From Amylibacter marinus (GTDB lineage: Bacteria; Pseudomonadota; Alphaproteobacteria; Rhodobacterales; Rhodobacteraceae): a stretch of DNA of 64,000 nt. How positions within the stretch are numbered: position 1 is the stretch's first letter; each line of letters opens with the position of its first letter. The notes beneath the pieces are model-generated. The model was not told the DNA's origin. It made no database searches and saw only the letters and a list, made by a program, of their open reading frames with translations. The stretch lies in the NCBI RefSeq assembly GCF_030160015.1, contig NZ_BSNN01000002.1:744001-808000 (forward strand). The letters run 5' to 3'. Positions 9,462 through 35,902 of this stretch are shown in pieces. Position numbers and translations under genes: made by a program.

Positions 9462-10511
9462 ATGACCGAACAAGGAAATCGAATTCTATCTGTAAGTTAT
9501 GGAAGCTTCTCAGTTTCCCTCGAAGGGTTCGAAGACCCCTTTGAAATCCTTCGCGATATCACAGAATATTTTAGAGCAGTGCTGGCCGCCGATCCTAGCT
9601 TTGGTACCTTGGCAATTTCAAACGCAGACGCCTTTCTAAAGCAATTGGGAACAGAGGTCATCCAATCGGATGTTGATCTAAGTATGGATGCAGAATCCAT
9701 CACCGTGCGCCCGGTCGCCACGACGGAATTGAAACCCGAGGATGTTCTACGCCCACAAGCACCAGCTCAGATGCGCACAGATGTCGAACACCCTATTACG
9801 GAATTAGAATCTAGTGCCTTGCGTCCCCTGGAATTGGGGCCAGAACTAGAGCAACCCGTTATGGAACCGGCCCAAGCCGAGGCATTTTCTACCCCATCTG
9901 ATGAGAATACTGTAGCAATTACATCACAGCCCACAGCGCCTCTAACCACCGAGATCCAGACCGAGACCGAAGATATGATCAATACCGCAGACCAAGCATT
10001 GGGTCTGCCGTTGATGATCGAAGAGGTTGCCAGCATATCGACCAGCATTGAGCAAGAAGAGACCCTTGCCCATGCCGTGGGCGAGCCTGTGAAATATCGC
10101 ACTGATTTGGTCAAGACCGAAGCACGGTTTCATGATGCGGTTGCCAATCACGACGAGATGGCCTTTGTTGGTAACTCTACTGTTCCCAGTGATGCGCCCA
10201 AGGGCCCGCGCAAGTTCCGCATTATCCGCAATGAGTATACCGCGCCCTTAGAGGCACAGCCAGCCGAGACAGCTGATACAGAGAGTGTAGAGCCCTCAGC
10301 ACCTGAGGTTGGTATTCCTGAGGCCTCTATTGAGGATCAGAAGAGTCTGCGCAGCGCTAACCCTTTTACGCGGTTTTTCGACAAGGGTGAAACAGTGTCC
10401 GTACCTGTACAAGAAGATGATGAACAGGAAGCAGATGACTTTGTAGAGAGCTTTGCAAAGGCCGACGATGTGCGCGCGGCATTTCGCAAACTAAAGGCTG
10501 AAATCGCCTAG
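9462..10511 (+). CDS. Conserved Rhodobacterales protein, long paralogue with SYGSFS/DPFE N-domain
   Basis: A 349-residue protein of unknown function. The N-terminal ~50 residues (SVSYGSFSVSLEGFEDPFE, a helix, DPSFG) repeat the domain of the gene before it. Then come about 250 acidic, Pro/Thr/Glu-rich residues that look disordered, with a short basic KGPRKFRIIRNE motif near residue 245, and a C-terminal helix (DDVRAAFRKLKAEI). No membrane segment or catalytic motif is visible. A well-placed GGAG precedes the ATG; a CtrA box lies upstream and a strong terminator follows. Confidence 0.65.
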   Translation: MTEQGNRILSVSYGSFSVSLEGFEDPFEILRDITEYFRAVLAADPSFGTLAISNADAFLKQLGTEVIQSDVDLSMDAESITVRPVATTELKPEDVLRPQAPAQMRTDVEHPITELESSALRPLELGPELEQPVMEPAQAEAFSTPSDENTVAITSQPTAPLTTEIQTETEDMINTADQALGLPLMIEEVASISTSIEQEETLAHAVGEPVKYRTDLVKTEARFHDAVANHDEMAFVGNSTVPSDAPKGPRKFRIIRNEYTAPLEAQPAETADTESVEPSAPEVGIPEASIEDQKSLRSANPFTRFFDKGETVSVPVQEDDEQEADDFVESFAKADDVRAAFRKLKAEIA

Positions 10512-33104: not shown

Positions 33105-33217
33105 AAACCCGTCCCCTTATTATATTTTTGTCACCTAAACACCAGTGGCGACTCCTTCCCCTTATAATAGCGCAAAATTCCCAAAGCGCATCACCCTAAT
33201 TGCCTCTATTTCAAGCG

Positions 33218-35110
33218 CTATGTTTTAGGGTAGCCGATTGTGCCCAATGCGGTGGTGATCTCAGACAAGATAGTTGGATCGTCGATCGTTGCCGGCATGG
33301 TATATGGTTCGCCGTCGGCAATTTTAGCAATTGTTCCGCGTAAAATTTTACCCGAGCGGGTTTTTGGCAATCGATCGACCACAACCGCCAATTTGAATGC
33401 TGCCACGGGGCCAATCTCTCCACGCACCCGTTTTATGCACTGGGCTATCAGATCGTCTGGGGAGGTTTCACAGCCCGCATTCACACACAGAAAACCAACC
33501 GGCAATTGGCCCTTTAACTTGTCCGCGGCACCAATTACCGCGCACTCGGCCACATCGGGGTGACCGGCTAGAACCTCTTCCATTTGGCCCGTTGACAACC
33601 TATGACCTGCGACGTTGATCACATCATCGGTGCGCGCCATGATATATAAATAACCATCCGCATCTTTGTACCCCGCATCCCCCGTTTCGTAATATCCATC
33701 GTATGTTTCTAGGTAGGAGGATTTAAAGCGCTGTTCGGCGTTCCACAATGTCGGTAATGTGCCCGGCGGCAGGGGTAGTTTTATGGCAATGGCACCCAGT
33801 TCTCCTGCAGGTTTTTCAACACCCGCCTCGTCCAGAATTTGGACATCGTATCCAGGCATCGGTACCGTTGGGGATCCCATTTTTATGGGCAACTGTTCTA
33901 TACCCAGCGGATTTGCAGCAATGGCATAGCCCGTTTCTGTTTGCCACCAATGATCGATGACCGGAACCTTTAGATAGTTTTGCGCCCAATGGATGGTGTC
34001 TGGATCAGCGCGTTCGCCGGCCAAAAACAGTGATTGGAGGCAGCTGGTATCATAGTCGTCCAGAAAACTCGCAGCTGGGTCCACACGTTTGATTGCGCGA
34101 AAGGCAGTGGGGGCCGTGAACAGGCATTTCACATTATGTTCGCTGACCACCCGCCAGAATGCACCGGCATCGGGCGTGCCAACGGGTTTGCCCTCGAACA
34201 CAATAGAGGTATTGCGGTTCAACAACGGAGCATAGCAAATATAGGAATGCCCGACCACCCAGCCCACGTCAGAGGCAGCCCAGAATACATCACCCGGATC
34301 CATATTATAGATGTTCTTCATGGTCCAATTCAGAGCCACCAAGTGACCCGCGCTGTGGCGAACCACCCCCTTGGGTGCGCCTGTGGTACCCGAGGTATAG
34401 AGGATATAAACAGGGTGATCGCCACGCACAGCCACACATTCAGCGGGCGTTGCCTGTGCAACCGTCTGCTGCCAATCGCAATCTTGTGGTTTGGACATAT
34501 CTGCTGCGCATTCGGGACGTTGCAGAATTAGGCATGTGTCTGGGCTGTGCTGTGCGATTGAAATTGCTTCATCCAATAGAGGCTTATAGGCAATCACCCC
34601 AGAGGGTTCTATCCCACAAGAGGCCGACAAAATCGCCTTAGGCGTGGCGTCATCAATGCGCGTGGCTAATTCTTTGGCCGCAAAGCCACCAAACACCACC
34701 GTATGGATTGCGCCAATACGGGCACATGCCAGCATTGCGATCACCGCCTCGGCGATCATTGGCATATAGATCAACACCCGATCGCCAACAACCACACCGC
34801 GCTGTTGTAATGCACCACCAAGGTCCGCCACGCGCGATTGTAATTCTGCATAAGTGATTTTTGACTGGTTTCCAGTAATTGGACTATCATAGATCAGCGC
34901 AACCTGATCACCGAACCCAGCCTCCACATGGCGATCCACTGCATTGTAGCAGGTGTTGACCTGCGCATCTTTGAACCACTCAAATAGCGGGGAATTTTCC
35001 GAGAAAAGAGCCTTGGATGGGGGCGAAATCCAATCGATATCTTGTGCCAGCGTCATCCAGTATTGCTCTGGGTTATTTTGCCAAGCCTGATAGGTGGTTT
35101 GATACGACAT
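33218..35110 (-). CDS. prpE: Propionyl-CoA synthetase
   Basis: An AMP-forming acyl-CoA ligase, 630 residues. The P-loop TSGTTGAPKG is at 239-248; the region SDVGWVVGHSYICYAPLL and the WWQTETGYAIAANPLG motif are of PrpE type rather than Acs; the acetylation-site Lys588 lies in TRSGKILRG. It activates propionate, and perhaps acrylate or acetate, relevant to DMSP-derived carbon in marine bacteria. ATG 35110 has GGAGGAG upstream. It is monocistronic with a long, structured upstream region. Confidence 0.88.
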   Translation of the reverse strand: MSYQTTYQAWQNNPEQYWMTLAQDIDWISPPSKALFSENSPLFEWFKDAQVNTCYNAVDRHVEAGFGDQVALIYDSPITGNQSKITYAELQSRVADLGGALQQRGVVVGDRVLIYMPMIAEAVIAMLACARIGAIHTVVFGGFAAKELATRIDDATPKAILSASCGIEPSGVIAYKPLLDEAISIAQHSPDTCLILQRPECAADMSKPQDCDWQQTVAQATPAECVAVRGDHPVYILYTSGTTGAPKGVVRHSAGHLVALNWTMKNIYNMDPGDVFWAASDVGWVVGHSYICYAPLLNRNTSIVFEGKPVGTPDAGAFWRVVSEHNVKCLFTAPTAFRAIKRVDPAASFLDDYDTSCLQSLFLAGERADPDTIHWAQNYLKVPVIDHWWQTETGYAIAANPLGIEQLPIKMGSPTVPMPGYDVQILDEAGVEKPAGELGAIAIKLPLPPGTLPTLWNAEQRFKSSYLETYDGYYETGDAGYKDADGYLYIMARTDDVINVAGHRLSTGQMEEVLAGHPDVAECAVIGAADKLKGQLPVGFLCVNAGCETSPDDLIAQCIKRVRGEIGPVAAFKLAVVVDRLPKTRSGKILRGTIAKIADGEPYTMPATIDDPTILSEITTALGTIGYPKT

Positions 35111-35259
35111 TGAAACTCCTCCCAAAGTGTTGTGCCCATGATTGCCCAAATCGGTTGGGCATTGTGATGGTTTATGCCAGCACATAAGAATTTTGGGGCA
35201 AGCATATCAACATCGCAAGTGACAAATTGACATAGGAACGAAGATCAGGGGAAAGAATA

Positions 35260-35350
35260 AAAGGCAAAGACCGAAACTGAATCAAGAGGGGACGATTCAG
35301 ATGCCCGTAAGGTAGGGGACAATGTGGGCGGATACTCGATCTTTGCCTTT
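35260..35350 (-). ncRNA. Candidate structured RNA with twin identical loops
   Basis: An outer perfect 11-bp stem, AAAGGCAAAGA (35260-35270) with TCTTTGCCTTT (35340-35350), closes two hairpins. Hairpin 1 is CTGAATC/GATTCAG (35277-35300). Hairpin 2 is based on GCCC/GGGC (35303-35329). Both loops carry AGGGGAC on the plus strand, GTCCCCT on the minus strand. Strand is uncertain: on the minus strand the outer stem extends by a wobble and ends in TTATTCTTT like a terminator, which favours an sRNA or prpE leader; on the plus strand hairpin 2 gains two G-U pairs. I do not recognise a known family. Confidence 0.45.
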
Positions 35351-35360
35351 CATCAATTAA

Positions 35361-35378
35361 GATAGCTAAATTGCTATC
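35361..35378. repeat. Inverted repeat, operator candidate
   Basis: GATAGC and GCTATC flank a 6-base A+T-rich spacer (TAAATT). It lies just outside the structured RNA candidate, where the promoter for a minus-strand transcript would be, so it could be an operator for that RNA or for prpE. Confidence 0.4.
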
Positions 35379-35545
35379 TCCACCTATGAGAAGGCCATTA
35401 ACCGTACTCGTTTACAAATGCTTACACATCAAAAGCACAATTTAAGCAGATTGCCGCCAGTGCGCGCCACCCGTAGGCAGGAAATTGCCGAAACAACACT
35501 CAACCCATGCGGGTAAATATTAACAATTCACCACAAATTGCGGTC

Positions 35546-35902
35546 TTATGTGCGGTCTTCGGCGAAGATATTCGGAAAGCTGACCATGGATTTACTGATA
35601 TCAACCTGCATTAGCGATTCGTAATCCTGTGGATCAAATGGATCACCCAGCGCGACCACCTCGCGCCCGATAAGCCAGCTTAGACGTCCGGCATCCAAAT
35701 TCCCGCGTACAAAGGGCTCGGCACCGAACTGCTCAATCAATGTTTGTAGAAAAACCTCGTCGGCTTTACGGTCCACATTGCGCCGATCCGCATAGCGCTC
35801 GCGGCGGATGATCTCAGTCGGGCCCGATTTGTTTGGGCGGCGAATGGTGAATTGAAAATCTGTTCCAGGAAGTCTGGATGGGAATCCGCGGTGCTTGTGC
35901 AT
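35546..35902 (-). CDS. Conserved hypothetical protein, 118 residues
   Basis: I do not recognise this protein. It is soluble, with a basic first half (RLPGTDFQFTIRRPNKSG; RRERYADRRNV) and an acidic second half (FGAEPFVRGNLDAGRLSWL; VALGDPFDPQDYESLM). It has no cysteine, signal peptide or membrane segment. ATG 35902 has GAGG five bases upstream and is preferred; the frame remains open to a TTG at 35971. It is divergent from the exporter gene at 36000 by about 100 bases. Confidence 0.55.
   Translation of the reverse strand: MHKHRGFPSRLPGTDFQFTIRRPNKSGPTEIIRRERYADRRNVDRKADEVFLQTLIEQFGAEPFVRGNLDAGRLSWLIGREVVALGDPFDPQDYESLMQVDISKSMVSFPNIFAEDRT

Follow-up and report, generated by a model that had tools for sequence, protein, structure and literature searches.

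What does the DNA between a prpE-like gene and its upstream neighbour in Amylibacter marinus encode? The region lies in the window, by which we mean the whole 64,000-nucleotide stretch that was analysed (contig NZ_BSNN01000002.1, positions 744,001 to 808,000), and an earlier note on this DNA had drawn attention there to a perfect 11-bp stem enclosing two hairpins whose loops share a heptamer. Both observations are exact: positions 35260-35270 (AAAGGCAAAGA) are the perfect reverse complement of 35340-35350, and the plus-strand copies of AGGGGAC at 35287 and 35314 are the only ones in the whole window (the complementary word GTCCCCT has three plus-strand copies, at 9823, 26585 and 33111, and the one at 33111 falls within the ribosome-binding region of a minus-strand SPOR gene). 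We conclude that this intergenic DNA is very probably the gene of a small, folded RNA whose two C-rich loops could mask ribosome-binding sites, and that the RNA is a real and new sRNA candidate. The features of the locus, in window coordinates, are the following:

33218..35110, minus strand: prpE-like acyl-CoA synthetase gene, the next gene downstream (Pfam AMP-binding domains).
35214..35231, minus strand: conserved ATTTGTC block, lying between prpE and the RNA (three-species alignment).
35253..35388, minus strand: whole candidate RNA of ~135 nt, made up of a 5' hairpin, a closed three-way-junction domain and a U-rich 3' end (match of the held-out model R3, below; fold z -6.24).
35257..35275, minus strand: 3' arm of the outer stem, continuing into TTTTATTCTTT (sequence and predicted fold).
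35277..35300, minus strand: hairpin 2, whose loop GTCCCCTCTT contains the conserved CCCCUCU (pair changes, loop core).
35303..35329, minus strand: hairpin 1, whose loop ACATTGTCCCCTACCTTAC contains the conserved UGUCCCCU (pair changes, loop octamer).
35336..35353, minus strand: 5' arm of the outer stem, ATGAAAGGCAAAGATCGA (15 scored pairs form in 3/3 species).
35360..35379, minus strand: 5' hairpin AGATAGC/GCTATCT (same place in 3/3 species; it lies beyond the span that the earlier note had considered).
35388..35417, minus strand: tentative promoter, TTGTAA (35412-35417), 18 nt and CTTCTC (35388-35393), picked by eye from the three-species alignment.
35451..35459, minus strand: a TGGCGG(CAA) box that is conserved past the DUF stop.
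35546..35902, minus strand: conserved upstream gene for an unnamed protein (called "DUF" here), which marks the locus across the family.

The arrangement had been judged unlikely to arise by chance, and this is true of the complete fold but not of the stem and the repeated heptamer taken alone. Inverted 11-mer repeats with a spacer of 40-120 nt occur once in the window and 0, 2, 3, 2 and 3 times in five Markov windows, and a 7-mer recurs no more than 60 nt away at 411 start positions in the window. The minus strand of 35255-35355, on the other hand, has a predicted folding energy of -39.9 kcal/mol (z = -7.71), which none of 200 shuffles equalled; the plus strand of the same element gives z = -3.29, and 3/200 shuffles were equally low. 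The outer stem is indeed longer on the minus strand, as had been suggested, with 20 pairs in the predicted fold, but hairpin 35303-35329 is weak there (4 pairs around a 19-nt loop), and the earlier remark on extra plus-strand pairs in one hairpin is correct for this hairpin in the window.

The element matches no Rfam family at threshold, and the earlier note had recognised none: the whole window gives one tRNA only (Rfam 15, gathering score), a search of 35150-35560 at E up to 10 gave four matches, the best of which scored 14.8 bits where the gathering score is 100, and searches of 23 loci (9 + 14) gave no match to the element at the gathering score. The 126-nt element DNA is present in a single copy in its own genome and was not found in the other 60 genomes of the relatives search. 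The prpE gene is present in 33/33 genus genomes, and when the DNA upstream of it was compared in the 29 that have a full-length locus (window genome included), two congeners, L003 (genome G028) and L004 (genome G022), were found to carry the same RNA between the DUF gene and prpE; their RNAs fold with z -6.3 and -7.5, each with 0/200 shuffles as low. A covariance model made from the three sequences (R1) matches exactly those 3 of the 33 genus genomes. The held-out model R3, made from the two relatives only, matches 35253-35388 on the minus strand (E 1.4e-5), and no other site of the 64 kb matches at E up to 10; when R3 was run on whole genomes, however, G000 was scored as a miss and none of its three first-look candidates scored.

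Searches of family genomes, species genomes and viral contigs found no convincing copy outside the three genus genomes. Across 315 family genomes (about one per genus, with stricter filters) R1 returned the window and one weak match (E 0.0265), which looks coding by eye. The exact outer-stem pattern occurs at 4 places in 3 of 295 family genomes, where only the window's own copy looks real by eye, and nowhere in the viral contigs; in the species-genome collection it selected 35 stretches that were then scored with R1. Among these, Rhodobacterales bacterium UBA7416, which has the same RNA as L003/G028, alone stands out, with 122.7 bits. The next forward match (34.2 bits, E 5e-6) falls in an Acidobacteria record that has AAAGGCAAAA/CTTTTGCCTTTT repeats; we take it for an unrelated repeat, the loci having been preselected for the exact outer stem; since R1 gives 34 bits to such repeats, scores near 30 bits are not decisive by themselves. 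Several AAAGGCAAAA...CTTTTGCCTTTT-like inverted-repeat copies are present in L044, L047, L057, L062 and L073 (Acidobacteria bacterium 13_1_20CM_3_53_8), and these are possibly a miniature repeat family.

The structure, strand, fixed loops and position of the RNA are conserved among the three species. Helices were aligned by hand, and the pair counts describe a structure that is drawn from three sequences only: all 15 outer-stem pairs form in the three species (2 with two-sided changes, 2 with one-sided changes and 11 invariant), the loop-closing pairs of hairpin 1 show two-sided changes in 4/4 cases among the three, hairpin 2 shows them in 4/7 pairs (window versus L003; L004, where this hairpin is weak and the predicted fold different, was excluded from the count), and the 5' hairpin in 6/7 hand-aligned pairs. 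Stems and loops are conserved in both relatives, and the prpE-upstream comparison shows pairing-preserving changes in all four helices. The loop words do not change: UGUCCCCU, the octamer of hairpin 1, and CCCCUCU of hairpin 2 are identical in 3/3 species, and UCCCC, which is complementary to Shine-Dalgarno sequences, is present in both loops of all three. Full-length folds have z values of -6.24, -5.80 and -6.13 on the RNA strand versus -3.73, -2.54 and -1.49 on the opposite strand, and no reading frame is open across the RNA in all three species. The minus-strand reading of the earlier note is supported in part: the results favour a structured RNA on that strand, with C-rich, anti-Shine-Dalgarno-like sequence in both of its loops.

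The flanking genes place this RNA in a wider setting. The downstream protein has propionate--CoA ligase as its best NCBIfam match, below the curated cut-off. The DUF gene product is 118 aa long and has no Pfam or NCBIfam family; its gene is present in 30/33 genus genomes and 43/46 family genomes (the window's own genome is counted in both). Relatives of the DUF protein are also encoded on 34 plasmid records, many of them rhizobial. Up to 330 nt past the DUF stop were read in 27 of the 30 genus loci (no frame was found in 3, and a contig edge cuts one locus off after 123 nt). Among the loci read, TGGCGG stands 23-86 nt past the stop in 6 besides those of the three species. At 20 of the 30 genus DUF loci (20/33 genomes; loci L083-L092 and L094-L103, for example L090:2057-2123) a nearly invariant UUUCAUUUCCCCUCUA, with one A-to-G change, precedes a covarying terminator-like hairpin; TTTCATTTCCCCTCTA, likewise with one A-to-G change, lies directly 5' of the hairpin and T tract in 20/30 loci, and in the alignment of 20 each of the 10 predicted hairpin pairs has changed on both sides at least once. 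With either A or G allowed, the exact 16-mer was found in 1/315 family genomes, itself a genus member, and is absent from the window genome; the 12-mer contained in it is absent from G000, G022 and G028. In all, 20 genus genomes have this genus-type element, 3 have the window type, and neither was detected in 10, of which 3 have no DUF-gene match and one has a locus that ends at a contig edge. The pccA gene starts downstream on the same strand in 17/20 genus-type loci (95-265 nt), and Rfam gave no match at the gathering score for the 11 genus-type loci searched. Pairing of the genus C-rich segment with the ribosome-binding site of pccA, the next gene, was considered and rejected, as these sites vary; the genus core was likewise given up as having a perfectly matching 12-nt target, since AGAGGGGAAATG occurs at only 19 places in the 33 genomes, all of them the element itself.

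Other genera have a CCGTTACCCTTCCCC-like sequence before a hairpin at the same site after the DUF gene. The motif CCCTTCC (CCCUUCC in RNA), which was chosen after being seen, lies no more than 230 nt past the DUF stop in 13 of 28 other-genus loci, in each case at a distance of 148-172 nt; it was found in 0/28 when the opposite strand was searched, and in 17/1186 random windows of the same loci. (These loci, within L106-L134, are the 29 fetched of 42 other-genus DUF matches minus L125, where no DUF frame was found; L135, a Paracoccus locus, was read by eye and is outside the scored set.) Downstream of 12 of the 13 CCCTTCC loci is pccA, on the same strand (176-783 nt). A covariance model of the genus core made without the other genera (R2) matches at the expected place in L120 (E 1.7e-4), L110 (E 0.011) and L134 (E 0.051) among the 29, and gave 7 further matches (E 0.078-0.8), three of which are in the window, away from the RNA.

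How might the window RNA act? It is probably a structured minus-strand sRNA of ~135 nt that acts in trans through its C-rich loops on Shine-Dalgarno sequences, and a remodelled occupant of its site (below); its transcription, termination, anti-Shine-Dalgarno pairing, targets, use of Hfq and descent from the family element are what we infer. The transcript would run from 35388 to 35253 on the minus strand, with the 5' hairpin first and then the domain closed by the long stem, in which two hairpins would present UGUCCCCU and CCCCUCU, and transcription would stop at the closing stem and the U-rich tract that follows it. Termination by the outer stem would require closure over ~73 nt. Similar hexamers with equal spacing are found by eye at the position of the tentative promoter in both aligned relatives; a consensus scan of the region gave 0 promoter-like sites and no standard terminator. 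In trans, the exposed C-rich loops would pair with G-rich Shine-Dalgarno sequences (AGGGGA-like), and this pairing would block or destabilise the target mRNAs, probably with Hfq.

AGGGGACA stands before an ATG at 27 places in the three genomes versus 11 for the reversed pattern. No orthologous site of this kind was found in the three genomes, and no conserved target with this pattern; in the single homologous pair among these sites the other protein's site is at residue 192 and not at the same start. The SPOR gene, whose ribosome-binding site had been pointed out as containing AGGGGAC, is not supported as a target, as the sequence before its start in the two relatives is AGGAAGAG or AGGATGAG and not AGGGGAC.

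Of the other explanations, the one that survives best assigns the element to the end of the DUF mRNA, either as a plain terminator that ends or stabilises this message or as an RNA cut from its 3'-UTR, and we consider it unlikely. The element is on the same strand as the DUF gene, ~160-190 nt downstream of its stop, the C-rich site is tied to that gene across the family, and 3'-UTR-derived sRNAs are known in Rhodobacter (PMC8625941), but a plain terminator has no need for invariant loop words over changing stems, nor for a 73-nt branched interior. If the RNA were processed from the DUF mRNA, the product would still be an sRNA.

A 5' leader of prpE, which the earlier note had entertained, would be an attenuator or riboswitch-like RNA within the prpE mRNA whose folding sets read-through or translation, and we judge this less likely than a separate sRNA and improbable overall. 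The RNA does lie directly upstream of prpE on the same strand in 3/3 species, its outer stem and U tract could serve as an attenuator, and 17/20 genus-type elements are upstream of pccA, which likewise belongs to propionate metabolism. However, the conserved block around ATTTGTC, which may be prpE's own control site, separates the RNA from prpE, and pairing of the loops with the prpE start is nothing unusual (it is equalled by 13.6 to 77.8% of random windows); moreover, of the 9 genomes in which the DUF gene precedes prpE, 5 have neither RNA type, and the C-rich site is found after the DUF gene also where prpE is not next.

That the element is a functionless chance fold or the fossil of a mobile repeat is very improbable: the 11-bp stem and repeated 7-mer are by themselves within chance and the RNA was not found in 30/33 genus genomes, but its presence in three species, the two-sided changes, the fixed loops, the held-out match and the single copy all speak against it. 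Scarcely credible is the plus strand as the RNA, with GGGGA-loop hairpins that would be decoys for a CsrA-like protein; CsrA decoys do take the form of hairpins with GGA in two loops, the plus strand has a z of -3.29, and one hairpin has more pairs on it in the window, but the fold is weaker on the plus strand in 3/3 species (down to z -1.49), the outer-stem G-U pairs form on the minus strand only and become mismatches on the plus strand, and both flanking genes are on the minus strand.

If the RNA is a separate, trans-acting sRNA, where did it come from? The DUF gene precedes prpE in 9/29 genus genomes, of which 3 have the window RNA, one (G019) has a genus-type core and 5 have neither. The C-rich loops of the window RNA start 226 and 253 nt past the DUF stop, those of the relatives start at 179 and at 210 or 212 nt, and the genus cores stand 212-255 nt past the stop (7 loci read with the core directly after the gene). 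The genus- and family-type elements are like the window RNA in site and strand, and the genus type has CCCCUCU as well, but their core is single-stranded just before a short terminator hairpin, whereas the words of the window RNA are in two loops of a closed domain. R2 does not find the window RNA, and R3 gave nothing better than E 4.5 against 27 genus loci, the genus-type loci not being found, so the argument for descent is one of position and a short C-rich core. Judged by site, strand, distance and C-rich core, the window RNA seems to be the genus-type gene; judged by the covariance models, it does not. Our term for it is therefore a remodelled or replaced occupant, and its apparent place in an sRNA site common to the family is a matter of position, not of a sequence model.

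In the prpE tree the three carriers fall within one group of 8 genomes (support 90/92) whose other 5 members are without the RNA; the tree requires two changes for the carriers, for example one gain and one loss, and they form one clade in only 4% of bootstrap trees. A history that may be put forward tentatively, and which we regard as possible, is that the family has an sRNA gene beside pccA, with a C-rich segment and marked by the DUF gene, and that in the 8-genome lineage with the DUF-prpE order this RNA vanished (5 genomes) or changed its body plan (3 genomes), exchanging a single-stranded seed and short terminator for a closed three-way junction that has a seed in each of two loops and uses its closing stem as the terminator. 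G019 (L026/L087) has a genus-type core together with a window-type gene order upstream of prpE, and a further C-rich stretch, ACTCCCCCGC, lies there in a predicted hairpin upstream of prpE.

Among known systems, the closest kind by analogy of motifs is the C-rich, anti-Shine-Dalgarno-like sRNA of Alphaproteobacteria (CcsR/cuckoo, AbcR). The CcsR/cuckoo RNAs of Rhodobacter and other Alphaproteobacteria have the C-rich motif CCUCCUCCC in hairpin loops and a possible anti-Shine-Dalgarno action, and AbcR1/AbcR2 have C-rich anti-Shine-Dalgarno loops; the window RNA resembles the former as an alphaproteobacterial sRNA with a C-rich loop motif and the latter in the type of its loops. Membership in the CcsR group was considered and rejected, as the loops contain UGUCCCCU and CCCCUCU and not CCUCCUCCC, and the DUF1127 partner of that group was not found in the five neighbouring proteins scanned. 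CcsR1-4 form a set of four homologous RNAs that share an RpoHI/RpoHII promoter and a transcript with ccaF1, a DUF1127 gene (PMC10253847), whereas the window has one RNA with a closed three-way junction. For AbcR1/AbcR2 of Rhizobiales a short RNA motif is described as mediating regulation (PMC5461406); the window RNA differs in having no Rfam match at threshold. UpsM and StsR of Rhodobacter sphaeroides are also Rhodobacteraceae sRNAs. UpsM, the 5' leader of the dcw cluster, has its end at a Rho-independent terminator that precedes a gene (PMC5089854), and StsR acts on UpsM (PMC8307010); neither is tied to the DUF-pccA locus in the parts of these two papers drawn on. The word propionyl is absent from the main text of a paper on Paracoccus denitrificans sRNAs (PMC5107571), and in the open-licence literature searched, supplements aside, no paper was recognised as describing the element.

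If this reading is right, the Rhodobacteraceae, which are widespread in water and include model bacteria, have beside propionate metabolism a conserved regulatory RNA that is missing from Rfam, and the window would be a tractable example of an sRNA that rebuilds its structure around conserved pairing words. Its fixed address downstream of one conserved gene lets the RNA be located and deleted in laboratory strains.

Rfam also gave a sub-threshold isrL match at L102:1039-1215 on the minus strand (24.0 bits, E 0.0057; the gathering score is 35), which overlaps the genus-type element. Small genes that by eye appear to encode glycine-zipper lipoprotein-like products lie between the DUF gene and pccA in many of the genomes, L084, L088, L098, L114 and L135 among them.
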